Source of the DNA: Pirellulales bacterium
GTDB taxonomy: Bacteria > Planctomycetota > Planctomycetia > Pirellulales > Thermoguttaceae
Length of the DNA stretch: 64,000 bases
Assembly (NCBI GenBank): GCA_020846145.1
Contig: JADLEL010000217.1
Span: forward strand, 1 to 64,000
Direction: 5' to 3'
Shown one piece after another: positions 10,468 through 58,115 of this stretch. The stretch's first letter is position 1, and each line of letters opens with the position of its first letter. The notes under the pieces are model-generated. The model did no database searches and was not told where the DNA came from. It saw only the letters and a program-made list of their open reading frames with translations. The position numbers were made by a program, and so were the translations under genes.

Positions 10468-11502
10468 TCACCGCTCCGCGTTCACCGCGTCGATCAACTG
10501 CCGCAGCCTGCCGAAATTGCGGCGATTGAAGCGGAAGATGAGCCGCGGCAGTTCGGCCAGCAGCGGATCGTCGCGTTCGTCGGGCAAGGCGCCGCCGAGT
10601 TCGATTTTGCCCTCGAGGAGGATGTCGGCGAAATTCGCGTTGAGCGCATCGAGCAGCGATTCGCTCGGCGCCTTCATCATCCGGATGACGAGTTGCTCGC
10701 GGACGTAGCGCATGCTGTGGTAAACGCGGTAGAAGCCGATGATCTCCGCGACCGCCGCTGCGACGCTGTCGGTCCGTTTGTAGAGCGAAAGGTCCTCCGC
10801 CGAGATCATTCCGCGGGCCAGCAACTGCCGCTCGACGAAGTCTTGCCACGCGCCCCAGTAATCGCCGCCCGGCTCGTCGAGCATCACGATCGGCAGCATG
10901 TCGTGCTTGCCGGTTTGCAGCAGCGTGAGCACTTCCAGCCCCTCGTCGAGCGTGCCGAAGCCGCCGGGCATGAGGCAGATGGCGTCGGTCTCTTTCACGA
11001 ACATCAGTTTGCGCGTGAAAAAGTATTTCATGTGGACCAGTTTCGCGTCGCCGGCGATGACTTTGTTGGCCGATTGCTCGAACGGGAGGAGGATGTTCAG
11101 CCCCATTGAATTTTCCCGGCCCGCACCCAGGTGTCCCGCCTCCATGATCCCGCTGGCCGCGCCGGTGATGATCAGCCAACGGTTGGCGGCCATCGCGCGG
11201 CCGAACTCCACGGCCATTTGGTAAGCGGGCCGTTCGGGCGGCGTCCGCGCCGAGCCGAACATCGTTACCTTGCGCAGCCGGCGATACGGCGAAAAGACTT
11301 TGAAGGCGTAGCGCAACTCGCGGAGCGTGCGGCGGATGATTTTCAAGTCGCCACGGCTGGGATGATCCCCTGCCATGTGGTCGGCCGACTCCTTGATCTG
11401 TGCGATCAATTCCGCAATGTGCTTCGCGGCAAGAGCTTCATCGGGTTCGGAATCGGGATCTGCAGCGTCGGGGGATGCGTTCACGGAATCGTAATCGAGC
11501 AT
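10468..11502 (-). CDS. LOG-family (Rossmann-fold nucleotide-binding) protein
   Basis: The 344-residue protein carries the LOG signature PGGFGTLDE together with MFGSARTPP and ITGAASGIMEAGHLGAG. LOG proteins form a Rossmann-like fold and hydrolyse nucleoside 5'-monophosphates such as cytokinin ribotides; many bacterial members are misnamed lysine decarboxylases. Here an N-terminal extension of about 80 residues and a C-terminal extension of about 100 residues, ending FNRRNFGRLRQLIDAV, flank the core, as in the longer TIGR00730-type members. The ATG at 11502 is preferred over the one 13 codons upstream because the DNA between is low-complexity leader repeat, not protein-like. Neither start has a Shine-Dalgarno sequence. 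Confidence 0.85.
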   Translation of the reverse strand: MLDYDSVNASPDAADPDSEPDEALAAKHIAELIAQIKESADHMAGDHPSRGDLKIIRRTLRELRYAFKVFSPYRRLRKVTMFGSARTPPERPAYQMAVEFGRAMAANRWLIITGAASGIMEAGHLGAGRENSMGLNILLPFEQSANKVIAGDAKLVHMKYFFTRKLMFVKETDAICLMPGGFGTLDEGLEVLTLLQTGKHDMLPIVMLDEPGGDYWGAWQDFVERQLLARGMISAEDLSLYKRTDSVAAAVAEIIGFYRVYHSMRYVREQLVIRMMKAPSESLLDALNANFADILLEGKIELGGALPDERDDPLLAELPRLIFRFNRRNFGRLRQLIDAVNAER

Positions 11503-11761
11503 GAGAGGTGATAGGAAGGATGAATGTTGAATGCTGAACATTAAGCAGCCATCGGGTATCGACCGAAGACTGGACAGAGAATGTCCGGCGAAGGAAAGGC
11601 GAACAATAACTCTTTTTTAAGCCGAAGAATTCATTCAGCATTTCGCTTTCAATCTTACTTCCGGATCCCCAAATTCTCCAGTCTCAAGAAACGCCGCCAG
11701 CCCGGGGTGCTGGGAACCGGGCTGGTAAAATGCGTATTATGGGTAGTTGTCTCTTGTGCCG
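11503..11761. other. Spacer with leader repeat, no gene
   Basis: On the minus strand the 40 bases before the LOG start are ATGTTCAGCATTCAACATTC followed by ATCCTTCC and CTATCACCTCTC, a pyrimidine-rich leader without a Shine-Dalgarno sequence. A partly complementary AATGCTGAATGAATTC lies near 11625-11645, so the leader may fold back. No further coding signal is visible. Confidence 0.5.
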
Positions 11762-12376: not shown

Positions 12377-15300
12377 ATGGCGAGCACGGTAACGATCGAT
12401 CTGCGGCAAGTAGCCCGCGGCCTGGACATCCCCGCAAAACAAGTTCAAGCCACCGTAGAACTTCTCGATGAAGGCAATACGGTCCCCTTCATCACCCGAT
12501 ACCGCAAGGATCGAACCGGCGGATTGGATGAAGAGCAAGTTCGGACGATTCAAGACCGGCTGACGAAGATGCGTTTGCTTTCCGAGCGGAAGCAAACGAT
12601 CTTGCGTTCGATCGAAGCGCAAGGCAAGCTGAGCGAGCAGCTCGCCAAGCAAATCCTCGCCGCGGCGACGACGAAGCGGCTCGAGGACCTGTACTTGCCC
12701 TTCAAGCCCAAGAAGCAAACGCTGGCCACGACCGCGCGCAGCCGGGGATTGGAAGGACTGGCGCGGGAAATCCTGGAGGCCGATCCGCTATGCGCGAAGC
12801 TCGACGCCCGGGCCGCCGATTACGCCAGCGCGGATCGCCAAGTGCCCTCCGGGGCCGACGCCTTGCTGGGCGCGGGCCACATCCTCGCCGAGCAATTCAG
12901 CGAGCACGCCGAAGTGCGGCAGCGCCTCCGCGAGATCATGCAGCGCACGGGAGTGATCGTCAGCACGCGGATCGCGCCCGAAATCAAGACCGCGCCCGCG
13001 CCTTCGCCCGCTTTGGAGAAATCGGAAAAGCTCGCGCCGGGCACGCACAGCGTCGATGCCGTGGCGCCGGCACACGATGCGCAGGGCATCGCCACGCACG
13101 CCGAAGCGGCCGATCTGCCCGAGCCGGTTTCCCAGGAATCGACCGCCGCGGCGGAACCCCTCGACGGCGAAGCGCGGAACGCCGTCGCCGTTTCGACGGC
13201 CACGGCGGGCAGCGCGTCGGAAGCCATTCACGCCGCCGACTCGATTTCCGCCGAAACGGAGATCGAGCGAACGCCCGCCGAGCAGGCAAGCGTTTCCGAG
13301 CCGTTGGATTTGCGATCGTCCGCCGCGGAAACGCATTCCGGCGATGCGGTCAGCGCGCACGACACCGCCGCGGCAGCCGGCGAAATTCCGCCCGCCGCCG
13401 GCACGGACTCCCTCGCGCAAGTCGCCGCGGCGCAATTCGCCGCCGGCGATCTCGCGCCCTCCTTGGACGCGCACGGCGCGGGCGCGCAGATCGTCAGTTC
13501 CGCCACGGCGCGTCCGCCGGCGCCGACGGCCGCGCAGCGCCGGCAGATGGAGCGCCAGGCCGCCCGCGAGCAGCAGCGCGCCAAGCGCGAGCAAATGAAG
13601 AAGCGGCTCGAGGAAAAGCGGATCAAATCGTTCCGCGATTACTTCGATTACCGCGACGAGATCAAGCGCATGCCGCTGCATCGCGTACTGGCCCTCAACC
13701 GCGGCGAGCGGTCGAAGATCCTCCGCGTGAAGATCGAGACCGATTTGCAGGCGATGGTCAACGCGGTCGAGGAGATTCTCGTGCCGCCGACGCATCCGCA
13801 CGCCGACTACCTTCGCGGCTGCGCCCGCGACGCGCTCGCCCGGCTGATTCTGCCGAGCCTCGAGCGCGAAGCTCGCCGCGAATTGACCGAGCGCGCCGAA
13901 GCGCACGCCGTGGATGTCTTCGCCAAGAATCTGCGGAATTTGCTCTTGCAGCCGCCGATCCGGAATCACCGCGTGTTGGCGCTCGATCCGGGCTTCAAGA
14001 GCGGCTGCAAATACACGGCGCTCGACCAGTTCGGCAACCTCCTGGAGCACGGCGTGATCTTCCTCGTCGGCAAGCCCGACCACCGCGCGCAATCCAAGCA
14101 GAAGATCGTCGAGGTCATCAAGAAATTTCAAATCACGGTGGTCGCCATCGGCAACGGCACCGCCTGCCGCGAGGTGGAAAAATTCGTCGCCGGCGACGTG
14201 CTGGGGGGCGAACTTATCGAGCGCGGCGTCGCGTACGTGATCGTCAACGAGGCCGGCGCGAGCGTCTATTCCACCAGCCGCTTGGGACGGGAAGAGTTCC
14301 CCGATTACGACGCCACCCTCCGCGGCGCGATCTCCATCGGCCGCCGCTTGCAGGACCCCTTGAGCGAACTCGTGAAGATCGAGCCGGCCAACATCGGCGT
14401 GGGATTGTACCAGCACGACGTGAAGGCCAAGCACTTGAGCGCGTCGTTGGACGGCGTGGTCGAATCGTGCGTGAATTACGTCGGCGTCGATGCGAACATG
14501 GCCAGTCCCGCGCTCTTGAGCTACGTATCGGGCTTGAACCAACTGACCGCCCGGCGACTCTACGAATACCGCCGCGAGCACGGGCCGTTCCGCAATCGCG
14601 AACAACTTCGGCAGGTGCCGGGCTTGGGCGAGGCGACTTTCGTCCAAGCCGCTGGATTCCTCAAGATTTCCAACGGCGACAATCCCTTGGATTTCACCTG
14701 GATTCATCCCGAAAGCTACGAGGTCGCCTCCCGCCTTCTCGAACGCTTGGGCTGCACCCCCGCCGATCTCTCCGACAAGGCGAAAGTGGCCGAACTGACC
14801 GAACGCATCTCCGCGCTCAATGTGGACGAATTGGCCGCCGAGTTGCAAATCGGCGCGTTGACCTTGAAGGACATGCTGGCCCAATTCGTCCGTCCGGGCC
14901 GCGATCCCCGCGAGGACTTGCCCCCGCCCGCCTTCAAGCACGGCATCTTGAAACTCGAAGATCTGTGTCCCGGCATGGAACTGACCGGCACGGTGCTGAA
15001 CGTGGTCGATTTCGGCTGCTTCGTCGATATTGGCATGCACGACAGCGGCCTGGTCCACGTAAGCCATTTGGCCGACCGCTTCATCCGCGATCCGCACGAA
15101 GTGGTTTCGGTGGGCGACGTGGTGAAGGTCTGGGTGCTCTCGGTCGAGAAGGAACGGCGGCGCGTTTCCCTGACGATGGTCCAACCCGGCACCGAACGGC
15201 CGCGGCCGCCGCGCCGCCAACCGCGCGGCGAAGGCCAATCGGGCGAGGGCGCTCCGGCGGAAGGCGCAGCGGCCGAAGGTCCGGCAACGGGCGCTCCACC

Positions 15301-15961
15301 GCAACGCGAGCAAGGCCACGGCGGACGGCCCCCGCGGCGCGATCGCGGACTCCGGCAAGGTCGTCCCCCGCAAGGAGAACGGCCGCAAGGAGAACGGCCC
15401 CCGCAAGGAGATCGTCCGCAAGGAGAACGTCCGCAAGGAGAACGGCCCCCGCAAGGAGATCGTCCGCAAGGAGAACGGCCACCGCAAGGCGAGCGACCGC
15501 AGCGCGACCGGCCGCCGCGCCAACAAGGCGGCCAGGGAGGCCAGGGCGGAGGGCGTCCCTCCCGATACGGCGGGCCGCGCCGCGGCGCGTCGCACGATCG
15601 TTCGCACGGCCCTTACGAAGCCAAAGCCAAGCCCAAACCGGTGATTCCCCTTACCGACGAAATGAAAAAGGGCAAGGAGCCGTTGCGGACTTTCGGCGAC
15701 CTGTTGCAGTTTTACGAACTCCAGCAGCAGCCGGCCGATATGTCCGTTCCTCAATCGGCCGATGAACCCCCCGTGCCGGCGCCCGAGCAAGCGGCTCCCC
15801 CCACGGCCGAAATTCCCGCAGCGCAAACCGTCGTGCCGCCGACCGACGGCGAAACCTCGATTATCGCTGATACGCCGCCCGAACCGGGGCCGGTCGAAGA
15901 AAAAACTCCACCCGTGGTCGATGTCCAAGCGGAACGGCCCGCTCCCAACGAAATCGGCTGA
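12377..15961 (+). CDS. tex: Tex-family RNA-binding transcription accessory protein, with large insertions
   Basis: The 1194-residue protein is far longer than a usual Tex (about 720-780). Residues 1-205 are the helical N-terminal Tex region (VPFITRYRKDRTGGLDEEQ). About 208-413 are an Ala/Glu/Pro-rich low-complexity insertion. The Tex core resumes at RIKSFRDYFDYRDEIKRMP, with a YqgF/RNase H-like domain from about 529 (LALDPGFKSGCK), helix-hairpin-helix segments (GPFRNREQLRQVPGLGEATF) and an S1 RNA-binding domain at about 865-935 (GTVLNVVDFGCFVDIG). The tail 937-1194 is disordered, with PQGER/PQGDR repeats around 998-1040. Tex acts on RNA and transcription elongation in the cytoplasm. No frameshift is seen, so the insertions appear to be translated. 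Confidence 0.9.
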   Translation: MASTVTIDLRQVARGLDIPAKQVQATVELLDEGNTVPFITRYRKDRTGGLDEEQVRTIQDRLTKMRLLSERKQTILRSIEAQGKLSEQLAKQILAAATTKRLEDLYLPFKPKKQTLATTARSRGLEGLAREILEADPLCAKLDARAADYASADRQVPSGADALLGAGHILAEQFSEHAEVRQRLREIMQRTGVIVSTRIAPEIKTAPAPSPALEKSEKLAPGTHSVDAVAPAHDAQGIATHAEAADLPEPVSQESTAAAEPLDGEARNAVAVSTATAGSASEAIHAADSISAETEIERTPAEQASVSEPLDLRSSAAETHSGDAVSAHDTAAAAGEIPPAAGTDSLAQVAAAQFAAGDLAPSLDAHGAGAQIVSSATARPPAPTAAQRRQMERQAAREQQRAKREQMKKRLEEKRIKSFRDYFDYRDEIKRMPLHRVLALNRGERSKILRVKIETDLQAMVNAVEEILVPPTHPHADYLRGCARDALARLILPSLEREARRELTERAEAHAVDVFAKNLRNLLLQPPIRNHRVLALDPGFKSGCKYTALDQFGNLLEHGVIFLVGKPDHRAQSKQKIVEVIKKFQITVVAIGNGTACREVEKFVAGDVLGGELIERGVAYVIVNEAGASVYSTSRLGREEFPDYDATLRGAISIGRRLQDPLSELVKIEPANIGVGLYQHDVKAKHLSASLDGVVESCVNYVGVDANMASPALLSYVSGLNQLTARRLYEYRREHGPFRNREQLRQVPGLGEATFVQAAGFLKISNGDNPLDFTWIHPESYEVASRLLERLGCTPADLSDKAKVAELTERISALNVDELAAELQIGALTLKDMLAQFVRPGRDPREDLPPPAFKHGILKLEDLCPGMELTGTVLNVVDFGCFVDIGMHDSGLVHVSHLADRFIRDPHEVVSVGDVVKVWVLSVEKERRRVSLTMVQPGTERPRPPRRQPRGEGQSGEGAPAEGAAAEGPATGAPPQREQGHGGRPPRRDRGLRQGRPPQGERPQGERPPQGDRPQGERPQGERPPQGDRPQGERPPQGERPQRDRPPRQQGGQGGQGGGRPSRYGGPRRGASHDRSHGPYEAKAKPKPVIPLTDEMKKGKEPLRTFGDLLQFYELQQQPADMSVPQSADEPPVPAPEQAAPPTAEIPAAQTVVPPTDGETSIIADTPPEPGPVEEKTPPVVDVQAERPAPNEIG
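15366..15510 (+). repeat. Coding tandem repeats (PQGER/PQGDR units)
   Basis: Units of 15 or 18 bases built on CCGCAAGGAGAACG repeat about nine times in the Tex gene, encoding alternating P-Q-G-E-R-P and P-P-Q-G-D-R-P steps. Unit length is always a multiple of three, so gains or losses would keep the frame. Such a tract is expected to vary in copy number between strains. Confidence 0.9.
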
Positions 15962-15998
15962 AATGAATTTTGGCTTTGAAGGTGCGCAAGAAGAAAGG

Positions 15999-16108
15999 AC
16001 GAATGACGAAGCTCGAATGACGAAAGAAGGTCGAAGCATCGAGGCCAAAGAATTTTCGGCATTCCTACTCCGGATTTCTTACGTCATTCGAGCTTCGTCA
16101 TTCGTCAT
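15999..16108. repeat. Fold-back repeat (CGAATGACGAAG type)
   Basis: About 24 bases from 15999 (ACGAATGACGAAGCTCGAAT...) are exactly complementary to the arm ending near 16106. Each arm is itself made of repeated CGAATGACGAA units. The element lies in the leader of the gene starting at 16185 and would make a very stable mRNA hairpin. Confidence 0.8.
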
Positions 16109-16184
16109 TGTAGATCGAGCTGCCGCCTCCGTACTGAATTCAATCCCTTTCGCCTTCCCCTTTCCTCCTTCCGCCTTCCTTCTC

Positions 16185-16670
16185 ATGGATTTTCAACAAC
16201 GGCTGCAAAAGGCGATCGAGCGCGGCTCGCGGGCGGGCGACGAGCAAGCGCGGGCCGAGCGCGATCGGGAACTCAACGAAAAGGAACTGCAGCGGCTGCA
16301 CGCCCAGTACCGGCTCGAACTCGGCGAACGCATCGAGCGCTGCCTGGCCCAGGTGGCCGACCAGTTTCCCGGCTTCCAGTTGGAATCGATCGTCGGCGAG
16401 CGCGGCTGGGGGGCGGCCATCGCCCGCGACGATCTGCGCATCGACCGAATCGCCGGCCGCACCAACGGTTTCAGCCGCCTCGAGATGTTCATCCGCCCCT
16501 ACTCTTCCTATCGCCTTCTCGAACTCGCCGCCAAGGGCACCGTCCAGAACCGCGAGGTCTTCAACCGCACCCAATACCAGCGCCTCGCCGAGGCCGATCT
16601 CACCAGCTTCACCGAAATGATCGACCACGGGGCGCTCGAATTCGCCGAAATGTACGCGGCGAAGAAATAA
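16185..16670 (+). CDS. Conserved hypothetical protein, charged N-terminus (161 aa)
   Basis: The product starts MDFQQRLQKAIERGSRAGDE and has an N-terminal stretch rich in Arg, Glu and Lys (about residues 5-55) with coiled-coil character. A compact region follows, with VADQFPGFQLESIVGERGWG and LEMFIRPYSSYRLLELAAKG. No catalytic motif, signal peptide or membrane segment is visible. The ATG is preceded not by a Shine-Dalgarno but by a pyrimidine-rich leader (TTCCTCCTTCCGCCTTCC). The gene is 14 bases upstream of the nucleotidyltransferase gene on the same strand, so the two may be cotranscribed. Function unknown. Confidence 0.7.
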   Translation: MDFQQRLQKAIERGSRAGDEQARAERDRELNEKELQRLHAQYRLELGERIERCLAQVADQFPGFQLESIVGERGWGAAIARDDLRIDRIAGRTNGFSRLEMFIRPYSSYRLLELAAKGTVQNREVFNRTQYQRLAEADLTSFTEMIDHGALEFAEMYAAKK

Positions 16671-24228: not shown

Positions 24229-25776
24229 ATGACTCGCGAAACGATACCCGCCGTCGGCATCGACTTGGGCACGACCTTCTCGGCCGTGGCGAAGCTCGAC
24301 GAGCGCGGCTTGCCGCTGACGCTGGTCAACGCCGAGGGCGATCACCTCACGCCCAGCGTGGTGCTGTTCGACGGCGACGACGTGATCGTGGGCAAGGAGG
24401 CATTGAAGGCGATCGCCGTCGAAGCTCCCCGCGTGGCCGAATGCTCGAAGCGCGATGTCGGCCACCGCGCGTTCCACAAGACGCTGCAAGGCAAGAAGTA
24501 TCCCCCCGAGGTAATCGAGGCGTTCATCCTCGACAAACTCCGCCGCGACGCCCAGCTTCAAATCGGCCCTTTCAGCAAGGTCGTCATCACCGTGCCGGCC
24601 TACTTCGACGAGGTCCGCCGCAAAGCCACCCAGGACGCCGGCTACATGGCGGGCTTCGAGGTGCTGGACATCATCAACGAACCCACCGCCGCCGCCGTGG
24701 CCTTCGGCTTCCAGCAGGGATACCTCAACGAAGAGGGGAGCACCTCCGAACCGCAGCACGTCTTGGTCTATGATTTGGGCGGCGGCACGTTCGACGTTAC
24801 CGTGATGGAAATCCGCGGCACCGAGTTCATCGCTCTCGCCACCGACGGCGACGTCCGCTTGGGCGGCTACGACTGGGACCAGCGGCTGGTCGATATCGCG
24901 GCCGAATCATTCCTCCGGCGGCACAAGTTCGATCCGCGCGAGGATCCCATCGCCGCCGGCAAGCTGTGGCGCGAATGCGAGGACGCCAAGCGCACGCTTT
25001 CGGTCCGCTCGAAAGCCGCCGTGGCGTGCGATCACAAGGGCTGCTCCGCGCGGATCGAAATCACCCGGCGGCAGTTCGAGGAAGCCACGCTCGATCTCCT
25101 GGACCGCACCCGCTTCACCACCGCGCAAAGCTTGAAGGCGGCGGGCCTCGATTGGTCCGATATCGACCGCTTGCTTCTGGTCGGCGGATCGATCCGCATG
25201 CCGATGGTCCACGCCATGCTGCGGCAACTTTCGGGCAAGGAACCGGACGCCTCGGTCGCCGCCGACGAAGCCGTCGCTTTGGGCGCATCCCTGCACGCGG
25301 GCCTGATCCTCGCCCAACGGCAAGGAAATCCGCCGACCTTCACCATCAAAAACGTCAACTCGCACAGCTTGGGCGTGGTCGGCGTCGATCCCTTGACCGG
25401 CCGCCGCCGCAACGGCACGCTCATCCCCCGCAACACGCCGCTGCCGGTTACCGCCAAGCGGACCTTCAAAACCCGCAAGGAAAACCAGCGCTCGATCCTC
25501 GTCGAAATCGTCGAAGGCGAGAGTCCCTCGGCAGACGACTGCACCCGCATCGGCAAGTGTTCCGTGCGGCGCCTGCCCGAAAATATGCCGGCCCAGTCGC
25601 CGGTGGACGTGCTCTTTCACTACGAACCCAACGGCCGGTTGAAAGTCCGCGTCATCGTGCCCGGCGCGGACCGCCAAATCGCCACCGAAATCGTCCGCGA
25701 AAACAGCCTCGCCAAGGAACACCTCGACGGCTGGCGGAAATTCATCTGCGGACTGGAGCCGACGGAGTATCGATAA
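24229..25776 (+). CDS. Second Hsp70-family protein (soluble)
   Basis: The 515-residue protein parallels its neighbour: GIDLGTTFSAV (9-19), VNAEGDHLTPSVVLF, IINEPTAAAVAFGF (about 150), YDLGGGTFDVTV (about 182), LLVGGSIRMPMV (about 318) and NSHSLGVVGVDP (about 378). It stops shortly after a truncated substrate-binding domain (VDVLFHYEPNGRLKVR) and lacks both the helical lid and the transmembrane segment of the first protein. The ATG is close behind an inverted repeat; no strong Shine-Dalgarno is visible. The similarity suggests a tandem duplication followed by divergence of the C-termini. The client substrate is unknown. Confidence 0.92.
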   Translation: MTRETIPAVGIDLGTTFSAVAKLDERGLPLTLVNAEGDHLTPSVVLFDGDDVIVGKEALKAIAVEAPRVAECSKRDVGHRAFHKTLQGKKYPPEVIEAFILDKLRRDAQLQIGPFSKVVITVPAYFDEVRRKATQDAGYMAGFEVLDIINEPTAAAVAFGFQQGYLNEEGSTSEPQHVLVYDLGGGTFDVTVMEIRGTEFIALATDGDVRLGGYDWDQRLVDIAAESFLRRHKFDPREDPIAAGKLWRECEDAKRTLSVRSKAAVACDHKGCSARIEITRRQFEEATLDLLDRTRFTTAQSLKAAGLDWSDIDRLLLVGGSIRMPMVHAMLRQLSGKEPDASVAADEAVALGASLHAGLILAQRQGNPPTFTIKNVNSHSLGVVGVDPLTGRRRNGTLIPRNTPLPVTAKRTFKTRKENQRSILVEIVEGESPSADDCTRIGKCSVRRLPENMPAQSPVDVLFHYEPNGRLKVRVIVPGADRQIATEIVRENSLAKEHLDGWRKFICGLEPTEYR

Positions 25777-25971
25777 GAAGTATGAAGGATGAAGTATGAA
25801 GGAAGAATGTAACATGGTCTTAGGTCTTGGTTTTTTGGTCTTCGCCAAGCCCTAAGATCCAAGTCCTAAGCCCCAAGTCCCAAGCCCTAAAATCCAAGTC
25901 CTAAGACCCAAGTCCTAAGCCCCAAGACCAGAATCCTTAAAACCAAAACCTGTCCATTAGGAGCCATTGCC
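25777..25971. repeat. Low-complexity leader of AAGTCCTAAGCCCC units
   Basis: GAAGTATGAAGGAT units at 25780-25805 are followed by repeats of CCAAGTCCTAAG and CCCCAAGTCCCAAG from about 25845 to 25930. GGTCTTAGGTCTTGG near 25815 is complementary to CCAAGTCCTAAGACC near 25898, so the leader of the ThuA-like gene can fold back. No coding sequence is seen. Confidence 0.65.
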
Positions 25972-26799
25972 ATGAAACGCCGCGAAATGTTGCTCACGAC
26001 CGGAGCCGCCCTGCTGGGCATTTCCGCCTTCCCCTTTGGCTGGGTGGCGGCGGCCGACGATAAGAAGAAGTCCAAAATCCTGTATTTCACGAAAAGCGCC
26101 GGCTTCGTGCATTCGGTCGTCGATCGCAAGGGAAAGCCGCTGGCCTTCTCCGAAAAAATCCTCACCCAGTTGGGCGAGAAACACGGCTTCGAGGTGGTCT
26201 GTAGCCAAGACGCCGCCGTCTTCGACGGCGATCTGGCCCAATTCGACCAATTTGTCTTTTACACCACGGGCGAACCGTTCAGCAAGGCACAGAAACGAAA
26301 ACTGCTTGATGCCGTAACCGCCGGCAAGCCTTTCGTGGGCATCCACGCCGCGACCGACACCTACCGCGGCAAGAAGGAAATCGATCCCTTCATCGCCATG
26401 ATCGGCGGAGAATTCCTCAACCACGGCGAACAGCAAAAGGCGAAGCTGAAAGTCGTCTCGCCGCGGTTCCCCGGCGCGAAGGACCTCGGCGATGGATTTA
26501 AGATGACCGAAGAATGGTACGCCTGCAAGAATTTCGCCAAGGACATGCACGTCATCCTGCTGCAGGAGACCAAAGGTATGAAGGGCGAGATGTACAAGCG
26601 ACCCGACTTCCCCGCCACCTGGGCGAAAATGTCCGGCAAGGGCCGCGTCTTCTATACCTCGATGGGACACCGCGAAGACGTTTGGGAAAACAAAATATTC
26701 CAGGACGTGCTCCTCGGCGGCCTCTCCTGGGCACTGGGCAACGTCGAGGCCGACATCGCTCCCAACCTCGCCCAAGTCGCCCCGGAAGCGAACGGGTAG
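25972..26799 (+). CDS. ThuA-like domain protein, exported
   Basis: The 275-residue protein starts MKRREMLLTTGAALLGISAF, a Tat-like or Sec-like signal cleaved near AAA (residues 22-27). The rest is a ThuA-like, glutamine-amidotransferase-fold domain: ILYFTKSAGFVHSVV, QFVFYTTGEPFSK, FVGIHAATDTYRGKKE and GRVFYTSMGHREDVWEN. ThuA-like proteins are linked to trehalose and other sugar metabolism and are strongly expanded in planctomycetes, often beside secreted oxidoreductases; the chemistry of this group is not established. AGGAGCC precedes the ATG. No obvious operon partner lies downstream, where a convergent gene begins. Confidence 0.88.
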   Translation: MKRREMLLTTGAALLGISAFPFGWVAAADDKKKSKILYFTKSAGFVHSVVDRKGKPLAFSEKILTQLGEKHGFEVVCSQDAAVFDGDLAQFDQFVFYTTGEPFSKAQKRKLLDAVTAGKPFVGIHAATDTYRGKKEIDPFIAMIGGEFLNHGEQQKAKLKVVSPRFPGAKDLGDGFKMTEEWYACKNFAKDMHVILLQETKGMKGEMYKRPDFPATWAKMSGKGRVFYTSMGHREDVWENKIFQDVLLGGLSWALGNVEADIAPNLAQVAPEANG

Positions 26800-43127: not shown

Positions 43128-44048
43128 GTGACCGCATCCCCCCCGCGCCTGGACGTTCGACTCGGCCGACTCCATCTGGCCAATCCAATCACCGTCGCCT
43201 CAGGCACGTTCGGCTATGCGCGGGAGATGGAAGGGCTGGTCGATCTCCACCGCTTGGGCGGCATTCTGCCGAAAACGATCACCCAACTTCCGCGGCCCGG
43301 CAATCCGCCGCCGCGAACGTGCGAAACCGCCGCCGGGATGCTCAATTCCATCGGATTGGATAACGACGGCATCGAAGCCTTCATCGAGAAGCACATCCCT
43401 TACCTTGCATCGCTGGGCACGGCGATCGTCGTCAGCATTGCCGGCAAAACACGGCAGGAATTCGTGCAAATGGCCGCCAGGCTCGAAGGCGTTGCCGGCA
43501 TTTCGGCCCTGGAACTGAACATCTCTTGTCCGAACGTATCCGGCGGGGTCGATTTCGGCACCGATCCGGCCGCTTGCGAGCAGGTCGTTTCCGGCGTTCG
43601 GGCGGTTAGCTCGCTGCCGATCCTCGCCAAACTTACGCCCAATGTAACCGACATCACCCTCATCGCCCGAGCCGCCGAGGACGGCGGGGCCGACGCCCTT
43701 TCGCTCATCAACACATGCTTGGGGATGGCCGTAAACTGGCGCAAGCTGCGGCCGGTTTTAGGGAATATCCTCGGCGGATTGAGCGGCCCGGCCATCAAGC
43801 CGATCGCGCTGCGGATCGTGTATCAAGTCGCCCGGACGGTGAAAATTCCGCTCGTCGGCATCGGCGGCATCGCCACGATCGACGACGTAATGGAGTTTCT
43901 CGTCGCCGGCGCGACGGCCGTGCAGATCGGCACCGCGAATTTTTACCATCCCACCGTCTCGATGCAAATCCTCGACGCCCTGCCCGGCGCATTGGCCGAA
44001 CTTGGCGCGAGTTGCGTCGATGAGGTGGTGGGAACGATCAATGTATGA
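43128..44048 (+). CDS. pyrD: Dihydroorotate dehydrogenase, class 1B catalytic subunit
   Basis: The 306-residue flavoprotein oxidises dihydroorotate to orotate in pyrimidine synthesis. Features are [10 protein letters not shown] (21-30), [20 protein letters not shown] (58-77), the active-site loop [11 protein letters not shown] with Cys 134, and KLTPNVTDI. The phosphate-binding end has [21 protein letters not shown] cysteine as base places it in class 1, and the sequence fits the NAD-linked 1B type, which needs a PyrK electron-transfer partner; none is in the window. The start is GTG at 43128; an earlier start is not supported. Confidence 0.92.
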
Positions 44049-44129
44049 AGGGGGAAGGCGGAAGGCGGAAGGGGAATTCTGAAAATTACGTTTTTCCAAT
44101 TCCGCCTTCCCCCTTCCGCCTTCCCCCTT
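44048..44129. repeat. Fold-back leader repeat (GGAAGGCGGAAGG type)
   Basis: The purine-rich arm at 44048-44078 (GAAGGGGGAAGGCGGAAGGC...) is complementary to the pyrimidine-rich arm at 44098-44129. The pyrimidine-rich arm lies upstream of the trpS start, which has no Shine-Dalgarno but a CCTTTCCTCCC tract. Confidence 0.75.
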
Positions 44130-44172
44130 AATAAACCAATAATCGACACCAATTCCAACCACCTTTCCTCCC

Positions 44173-45141: not shown

Positions 45142-45146
45142 AATCT

Positions 45147-45214
45147 CCTGTATCCTGTCCCCTGTATCCTGTCCCCTGTATCCTGTCCCCTGTATCCTGT
45201 CCCCTGTTCCCTCC
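45147..45214. repeat. 14-bp tandem repeat in a leader
   Basis: The unit CCTGTATCCTGTCC is repeated four times exactly from 45147 to 45202, with a partial fifth. It directly precedes the ATG of the MazG-like gene and replaces any Shine-Dalgarno sequence. It is not spaced like a CRISPR array. Confidence 0.92.
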
Positions 45215-45567: not shown

Positions 45568-45598
45568 GCTGTAGATAAGATAGTAGCGATAGGAATTA

Positions 45599-45720
45599 CA
45601 ACACGGAGGCACGGAGAACACGGAGGATATTACGAAGCACGAATGAAAAAATATTTATCTTTCGATAATTTCTCATTCGTCATTAGCTTACTACTCCGTG
45701 CCCTCCGTGCCTCCGTGTTG
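45599..45720. repeat. Fold-back leader repeat (CACGGAGGCACGGAG type)
   Basis: The arm starting CAACACGGAGGCACGGAG at 45599 is complementary to the arm at 45694-45720 (ending CCGTGCCTCCGTGTTG). Inner CGAATGA and TCATTCG also pair. The element is upstream of the response-regulator gene at 45755 and related in style to 26924-27018. Confidence 0.8.
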
Positions 45721-45754
45721 AAATCCTTCGTTTGTTTCTTTAGAGGAGTCTTCC

Positions 45755-46201
45755 ATGCCCAGCGATAAAATCATTGGCCGGCCGATGGAAGTGCTGTTGG
45801 TGGAGGACGATCTCGAGGACGCCGGCATGACCATCGACGCCTTGCGGCAGGGCGACGTGCCGTGCCGGGTGCATTTGGTCCGCGACGGCGAGGAGGCGTT
45901 GGAGTTCGCGTTCCGGCGGGGCAGATTCCGTCGCGCTCCTCTGCCCGACTTGATCCTTCTCGATTTGGGCCTGCCCAAGCGGGGCGGCCGCGAGGTGCTG
46001 GTCCGACTCAAGGCCGACGAAACCTTGCAGCGGATACCCGTGGTGATTCTTACATCCTCATCCGCGCACCGCCAGATTCTGGCGGAGGAAAATCTGCACG
46101 TCGAAAGCTATCTCATCAAACCCGTCGATTTCGACCAGTTTCGCGGCGTTGTCAAATCGCTCCGCAAATACATGCTCTCCGACGTGCTGCTGCCGCAATG
46201 A
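45755..46201 (+). CDS. Response regulator, Rcp1-like receiver
   Basis: The 148-residue single-domain receiver has acidic EDD (17-19), phospho-acceptor Asp 70 in LILLDLGLPKRGG, Thr 100 in VILTSSSAH and Lys 122 in YLIKPVDF. The YLIKPVDFDQF ending and the DGEEALEF step fit the group of regulators paired with phytochrome-type kinases (Rcp1). The strong Shine-Dalgarno AGAGGAG precedes the ATG. No kinase gene is near. The downstream 170 bases to the tRNA contain no gene. Confidence 0.9.
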   Translation: MPSDKIIGRPMEVLLVEDDLEDAGMTIDALRQGDVPCRVHLVRDGEEALEFAFRRGRFRRAPLPDLILLDLGLPKRGGREVLVRLKADETLQRIPVVILTSSSAHRQILAEENLHVESYLIKPVDFDQFRGVVKSLRKYMLSDVLLPQ

Positions 46202-46371: not shown

Positions 46372-46444
46372 GCGCCCGTAGCTCAATGGATAGAGCAGCG
46401 GATTTCTAATCCGCTGGTTGTGGGTTCGAGTCCCGCCGGGCGTA
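46372..46444 (+). tRNA. tRNA-Arg (anticodon TCT)
   Basis: A complete cloverleaf can be drawn: acceptor GCGCCCG / CGGGCGT (one G-T pair), D arm GCTC / GAGC, anticodon stem GCGGA / TCCGC around TTTCTAA with anticodon TCT, T arm GTGGG / CCCGC with TTCGAGT, discriminator A. No CCA is encoded. Confidence 0.97.
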
Positions 46445-58041: not shown

Positions 58042-58115
58042 TGGGCGCACGAAGATTCGAACTTCGGACCTCGTCCTTATCAGGGACGCGCTCTAACCAA
58101 CTGAGCTATGCGCCC
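58042..58115 (-). tRNA. tRNA-Ile (anticodon GAT)
   Basis: The minus strand folds as a cloverleaf: acceptor GGGCGCA / TGCGCCC, D arm around AGCTCAGTTGGTTAGAGC, anticodon stem CGTCC / GGACG with loop CTGATAA (anticodon GAT), T arm with TTCGAAT, discriminator A. No CCA is encoded. Outside an rRNA operon, which is the usual home of tRNA-Ile(GAT). Confidence 0.96.

Follow-up and report, generated by a model that had tools for sequence, protein, structure and literature searches.

What are the simple repeats that precede six genes in this stretch of planctomycete DNA, and do they act on the expression of those genes? The window, by which we mean the whole analysed stretch of 64,000 nucleotides, carries such repeats in front of the genes at 11502 (minus strand), 16185, 25972, 44173 (trpS), 45217 and 45755. 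An earlier note described them as gene-specific fold-back leaders that stand in for the Shine-Dalgarno motif, each built from its own unit, and proposed a common mechanism at the level of RNA. As set out below, that observation is partly confirmed and its interpretation partly supported. The explanation that we consider probable is that the leader repeats are slippage-prone heptanucleotide fold-back insertions, dispersed by a DNA-level process and kept where they are least harmful.

Repeats in front of six genes in the window

Tandem units are present in front of all six genes. By Pfam, the genes in the neighbourhood encode a LOG/lysine-decarboxylase-like protein (10468-11502), Tex (12377-15961), HSP70 (24229-25776), a ThuA-like protein (25972), dihydroorotate dehydrogenase (43128), TrpS (44173), a MazG-like protein (45217) and a response regulator (45755). 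The repeats and their arms are as follows.

11509..11538, minus strand: pyrimidine-rich array TTCAGCATTCAACATTCATCC, just 5' of the start of the LOG/lysine-decarboxylase-like gene (10468-11502, minus)
11634..11659, minus strand: weak partner arm of 11513-11538, 73% complementary
15995..16027, plus strand: purine-rich fold-back arm, units CGAATGA / CGAAGCT, 3' of the tex stop (15961)
16028..16081, no strand: region looping between the arms of the 16185 fold-back
16082..16109, plus strand: pyrimidine-rich arm of the 16185 fold-back, units CGTCATT / CGAGCTT
16145..16180, plus strand: second pyrimidine array, CCGCCTT/CCTTTCC family, adjoining the ATG at 16185; no partner arm, MFE 0
25774..25807, plus strand: purine heptad array GAAGTAT/GAAGGAT, beginning at the TAA stop of the HSP70 gene (24229-25776)
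25815..25842, plus strand: arm with G, GGTCTTAGGTCTTGG
25845..25950, plus strand: C-rich heptad array CCAAGTC/CTAAGCC, 5' of the ThuA-like gene at 25972
44047..44076, plus strand: purine arm GAAGGGG/GAAGGCG, overlapping the pyrD stop codon TGA
44100..44129, plus strand: pyrimidine arm TTCCGCC/TTCCCCC, 5' of trpS (44173)
45144..45212, plus strand: pyrimidine heptad array CCTGTAT/CCTGTCC, between trpS and the mazG-like gene (45217); no partner arm
45600..45626, plus strand: left outer arm of a nested fold-back, CACGGAG units 8-9 bp apart
45694..45720, plus strand: right outer arm of the nested fold-back, CTCCGTG units, 5' of the response-regulator gene at 45755

The 7-bp period is strict in the window units (at 11502 these are TGAATGC-type heptamers), with the exception of the CACGGAG family at 45602-45720, where the spacing is 8-9 bp. 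A complementary upstream arm, which the earlier note reported for most leaders, is strong at three of them: the fold-backs at 15995-16109, 44044-44133 and 45595-45724 have RNA MFEs of -60, -61 and -63 kcal/mol (z -8.9, -9.4 and -11.2), respectively. It is weaker at 25815-25908 (z -3.1) and weak at 11502 (arms of 26 nt, 73%, z -2.5), and the 45217 leader has none (0 inverted pairs; MFE 0). The array at 16145-16180 that touches the ATG at 16185 belongs to a family unlike that of the fold-back above it and is unstructured, and the fold-back of 44173 stops more than 40 nt short of the ATG. As described previously, the side next to the ATG is pyrimidine-rich and carries no Shine-Dalgarno motif at 11502 (minus), 16185, 44173 and 45217; the motif is present at 25972 (AGGAG) and 45755 (GAGGAG). 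Rfam returned no match above the gathering score at the leaders, and its sole matches in the window are two tRNA genes, at 46372-46444 (plus) and 58042-58115 (minus). Separately, 48-bp and 15-bp tandem repeats (CCGCAAGGAGAACGG) lie at 15368-15480 within coding sequence, in the C-terminal extension of the Tex-like protein.

A dispersed population of seven-base arrays

The window and 80 further stretches of the same 5.8 Mb draft genome, 1.35 Mb in all, were scanned for self-matches at every lag from 3 to 30, with genes taken from a simple home-made dicodon caller. One of the four sampled batches had been picked via BLAST hits and was treated as biased, and rates per spacer class were taken from the unbiased subset. 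Across the 1.35 Mb we found 187 noncoding arrays at lag 7, 136 at lag 14, 79 at lag 21 and 56 at lag 28, against 0-6 at each lag that is not a multiple of seven; arrays of 7-bp units are far beyond chance. They comprise 3-20 units of exactly 7 bp, often paired with a facing array of the same family across a loop, and fall into dozens of families (AGGGGAT, AATGATG, AAGGCGG, ACTCTCC, AAGGATG, AATGACG, AAATTGC, ACTGCCT and others), many of which, such as AATGATG and AAATTGC, are not G-rich. Heptamer classes found in at least four arrays number 61. The tandem 7-bp unit length seen in the genome of the window is repeated in a genome from another family of the order (G040), which has 33 arrays at lag 7 and 0-5 at lags that are not multiples of seven.

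The claim that each locus has a motif of its own does not survive at genome scale, where units are common to many arrays: among 227 arrays, AAGGCGG recurs in 28, AATGACG in 19, AATGCTG in 15, AAGACCC in 12 and ACAGGAT in 8. The fold-back at 16000 likewise has dispersed relatives elsewhere, nested within CACGGAG arms as at 45600-45720. The leader repeats are members of a dispersed heptamer population, neither gene-specific nor limited to leaders, and gene-specific regulatory leaders were rejected as an explanation because the units are dispersed and are found following stops and within genes too. Nor was local duplication among neighbouring spacers supported: 11.8% of spacer pairs less than 3 kb apart share a unit against 11.0% of pairs on different contigs.

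Placement between genes and inward polarity

Random placement of the repeats with respect to genes, which would have spoken against the earlier interpretation, is not what we observe. In the unbiased subset, and at any gene-calling stringency, arrays occupy 26-31% of co-directional spacers, 2-5% of convergent spacers and 7-12% of divergent spacers (co-directional enrichment, P 8e-7 to 2e-5 against convergent and 2e-4 to 0.02 against divergent). Counted directly, 3 of 87 convergent spacers have arrays compared with 79 of 308 co-directional ones (P about 8e-7). The same preference is seen in G040, with 31 arrays in tandem spacers, one in a divergent and one in a convergent spacer. Intrinsic terminators, considered as an identity for the arrays, are expected at 3' ends including those of convergent pairs, yet convergent spacers are depleted. 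Such spacers usually tolerate repeats; that they are nearly array-free means that passive survival alone is insufficient, and leaves room for a role in polycistronic mRNA.

The arrays also have a defined strand polarity. Within 40 bp of a start codon the sense strand is pyrimidine-rich (Y) in 66 of 73 arrays, and within 40 bp of an upstream stop it is purine-rich (R) in 64 of 89. For single families this polarity is near absolute (AGGGGAT 24/24, AGAGTGG 13/13, AATGATG 17/18). An annotation artefact, caused by stop codons within R arrays, was rejected because families that contain no stop on either strand show the polarity as well (13:5 after stops and 16:1 before starts). Where a spacer holds both kinds of array the order is R then Y in 46 of 49 cases, R/Y pairs inside genes follow the same order in 7 of 7, and the few arrays in divergent or convergent spacers mostly obey the rule too. 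We first entertained, and then dropped, a polarity oriented by transcription: an inverted repeat of the form R-loop-Y reads R to Y on both strands, and the intragenic pairs show the same order, so the polarity is inward-facing rather than a matter of transcription direction. Read outward from a gene end, an array is the purine/G-rich strand.

Insertions inside conserved genes

The earlier note had placed the repeats in 5' leaders; they occur equally after stops, and also inside uvrA, mutS, addB, an hsp70-like gene and ubiD. In these conserved genes, facing pairs of stop-free families sit in frame, and only stop-free families are found inside ORFs. The uvrA insert (46 residues) splits residues that match the contiguous positions 624|625 of a solved UvrA structure (2r6f_A). 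The mutS insert is about 66 residues long and falls between positions 591 and 598 of 7ai5_A, immediately ahead of the Walker motif ITGPNMAGKST; the repeat family changes along one of its arms. These intragenic pairs are not leaders, and they reveal the element as inserted DNA.

Several further features of these genes were noted. In-frame low-complexity inserts of the PPSPFRLPPSAF type, encoded by heptad pairs, are present at L010:17091-20000 (minus strand, uvrA), L046:1972-4764 and L058:2819-6205. In the 3' part of L010:17091-20000 (minus), uvrA ends with a stop-free heptad pair; the frame stays open, and uvrA and its neighbour may read as one protein. The insert-bearing uvrA, mutS (just before Walker A) and addB are three DNA-repair genes of the window genome.

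The same junctions carry other units in related genera

A shared architecture despite unrelated sequences, as the earlier note proposed, is borne out beyond the window. The junction between pyrD and trpS carries an array with different units and the same layout in some other genera, and has no array in many others. The units found at this junction are listed by locus.

L093: CTAATCC
L095: CACTATC, running into the ATG
L098: CCCGAAC
L099: TTCGACA, two arms
L102: TTGACGG with TAATCCC
L105: AGGGTTC with CCCGAAT
L115: GGGGCTA with CCGAATC
L117: CTCCTAA

At the clpP1-clpP2 junction, the window genome has AGAGTGG/CCACTCT, two of its relatives (L188 and L190) have AATGACG-type arms and L257 has another unit. 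Array richness is patchy: in a set of 80 named Pirellulales-type loci, 1.1 Mb in total, only 9 contained lag-7 arrays (14 arrays altogether), and 100-kb samples from each of four relatives contained none. The heptamer repertoire is weakly held in common with relatives (13/73 against 6.6 expected).

L188 and L190 come from congeners that are 95.1% identical, and at three spacers the length difference between their arrays is 7, 38 (35+3) and about 14 bp, which indicates that array length shifts by whole units. In both, the heptads further include the stop codon at which the upstream gene ends. A point against the insertion reading is that no close relative showed an occupied site in an array-free state, so that the first insertion step itself was not observed between relatives. 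Other dispersed palindromes, GTTCCCACGC...GCATGGGAAC and GTTTAGCC...GGCTAAAC (L188:12628-14800 and L190:5784-7100, also L109 and L062), have a REP-type look and are distinct from the heptad arrays; they are the source of some of the indel difference between L188 and L190.

Shine-Dalgarno motifs and the RNA hairpin

A Shine-Dalgarno motif is found in 2 of 62 genes whose start abuts an array, compared with 184 of 499 array-free genes and 8 of 28 genes with an array further upstream. Arrays that touch the start do displace the motif, in which the earlier note was right, but 63% of array-free genes have no such motif either, so that its absence is ordinary in this genome.

The arrays could nevertheless be functional intercistronic RNA elements, in which the purine arm that follows the stop and the pyrimidine arm that precedes the start make up either a hairpin or an unstructured S1-binding leader that sets downstream translation or stability and replaces the Shine-Dalgarno motif. 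Their strong bias towards co-directional spacers, the scarcity of the motif at start-abutting arrays, the very stable hairpins at three of the six window loci and the occupation of the same junction by different units in other genera are all consistent with such a role. The arms themselves argue otherwise. If pairing in the transcript were under selection, G-U mismatches should be in excess; in 63 co-directional fold-backs they are not (47 G-U against 62 A-C), so that selection on the RNA hairpin is unsupported. The order of variant units is hardly mirrored between arms (22.5, compared with 21.1 when units are shuffled, and p<=0.05 in 2 of 18 pairs). Between a third and nearly half of the spacers with both R and Y arrays have arms of unrelated families, which cannot pair: 17 of 49 share no heptamer, or 26 of 57 R/Y combinations by a looser pairwise count. 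Many spacers have one arm only, pairs also occur inside genes, and the polarity belongs to the inverted repeat rather than to transcription. RNA-level selection on the hairpins was rejected on the lack of a G-U excess and of mirrored order; functional intercistronic RNA elements seem to us unlikely.

Origin of the arrays

In 32 of 49 spacers the arms have a heptamer in common, compared with 7.4 +/- 2.4 when arms are re-paired, which points to a common origin of the arms. We infer that the slippage-prone insertions favoured here would begin with an event at the DNA level, after which R-rich strands extend from each flank. Replication slippage would then expand, contract and homogenise the arrays, and these would survive mainly where promoters, terminators and reading frames stay unbroken. 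Displacement of Shine-Dalgarno motifs and strong mRNA hairpins would in most cases be by-products, and a local effect on translation or mRNA stability is possible at individual junctions.

A more specific route is the healing of double-strand breaks: before the two ends are joined, their 3' strands would be extended with G-rich heptads by a polymerase that is either template-directed or prone to slippage. The left end would then contribute R, and the right end R on the opposite strand, which reads as Y. There is a precedent in telomerase, which adds repeats to break ends at interstitial telomeric sites. Such healing predicts an inward R polarity whether the site is a start, a stop or the interior of a gene; it also predicts that the two sides of a spacer can carry unrelated families, that the family can change along one arm (as in the mutS insert) and that the order is not mirrored. 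It sits poorly with the excess of arms that share a family (32/49), which is more than independent addition predicts, and counts of reverse transcriptase (PF00078) and Ku (PF02735) do not track array content, for which reason both were rejected as drivers. We regard break healing as improbable. Its fuller form is similarly doubtful: wherever the chromosome breaks or an end stalls, both 3' ends would receive purine-rich heptads, in a process resembling interstitial telomere healing, and the scars would be kept chiefly between co-transcribed genes, with units turning over while position and inward polarity persist across genera.

Very improbable, in our estimate, are non-autonomous elements moved by Y1/HUH (REP-associated, RAYT-like) transposases: the fold-back form fits, and within one family Y1_Tnp matches number 4-17 in array-rich genomes (G000, G030, G003, G004, G013, G026, G006) and 0-3 in array-poor ones (G024, G007, G031, G010, G022, G014), but outside that family array-poor genomes are rich in matches too (G051 has 11 matches yet 0 arrays in 100 kb), the array families have neither a conserved palindrome nor a GTAG/CGTC tag in common, and a Y1/RAYT driver was rejected because its association with arrays holds within that one family only. 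The counts of reverse transcriptase, Ku and Y1 transposase identified no enzyme behind the arrays.

With slippage-prone insertion as the preferred reading, the wider meaning is as follows. Dozens of unrelated heptamers in one genome share the fixed 7-bp unit, the inward polarity of the G-strand and the co-directional preference, and other genera show these features again with other units, much as has been described for the single heptamers of Xanthomonas and Nostoc. This points to a general bacterial process that makes heptad repeats. The clean in-frame inserts in uvrA and mutS, together with the orthologous junctions, provide exact sites at which gain, loss and effect become testable. The findings also call for caution, in that the insertion of a repeat, and not regulation, can be the source both of a long hairpin in an mRNA and of the absence of a Shine-Dalgarno motif.

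Comparison with known repeat systems

The closest parallel is provided by the GGGAATC / GGGGA(T/C)T heptamers of Xanthomonas and Nostoc, of which about 180 copies are dispersed in each Xanthomonas genome. These are mostly intergenic between aligned ORFs, often as facing pairs, with the G-rich strand less than 50 bp after stops and the C-rich strand less than 50 bp before starts; sites are kept between species while length and sequence vary, and a G-quadruplex has been proposed (Rehm et al., 2015; PMC4692102). The 7-bp units, dispersal, location in aligned-ORF spacers, facing pairs, stop/start polarity and lasting sites with changing length and sequence are all shared with the arrays described here. 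The differences are that one motif is involved there against about 60 recurrent heptamer classes here, that convergent ORFs flank 16% of those repeats but about 6% of the present arrays, convergent spacers being clearly depleted here, and that many of the present families are not G-rich, in contrast to the G-quadruplex proposal.

The TAACTGA heptamers of Beggiatoaceae, Cyanobacteria and Bacteroidetes are direct repeats near start codons with few Shine-Dalgarno motifs and indels in 7-nt steps between strains, and a translational role has been proposed for them (MacGregor, 2015; PMC4679880). They resemble the present arrays in unit length, proximity to starts, scarcity of Shine-Dalgarno motifs and 7-nt-step length change. 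They differ in being a single heptamer, oriented forward to the start and with almost no inverted pairs in the BOGUAY genome, whereas the arrays here occur equally after stops and inside genes.

Tandem heptamers dispersed as here are also known from Geobacter metallireducens, with GGGACCG heptanucleotide elements in 49 places between and within genes (PMC2700814), and from Calothrix, with several motifs in one genome (cited in PMC4692102); the portions of these sources consulted report far fewer families and contain no analysis of facing pairs or of junctions. REP/BIME palindromes with RAYT transposases (PMC3733652) are likewise dispersed extragenic fold-backs, but the heptad arrays are tandem 7-bp repeats that have no conserved 20-40 bp palindrome or GTAG/CGTC tag and are almost missing from convergent spacers. 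The tandem repeats of archaeal Borgs (PMC9879509) are, as here, fast-evolving and found between and inside genes; their unit lengths vary and are divisible by three in ORFs, whereas here the unit is always 7 bp and only stop-free families enter ORFs. A literature search of partial coverage found no report of such heptad arrays for planctomycetes. The geometry itself is thus already known for single heptamers, and here it appears in an unusually rich, multi-family form, alongside clear insertions in conserved genes and differing units at orthologous junctions.
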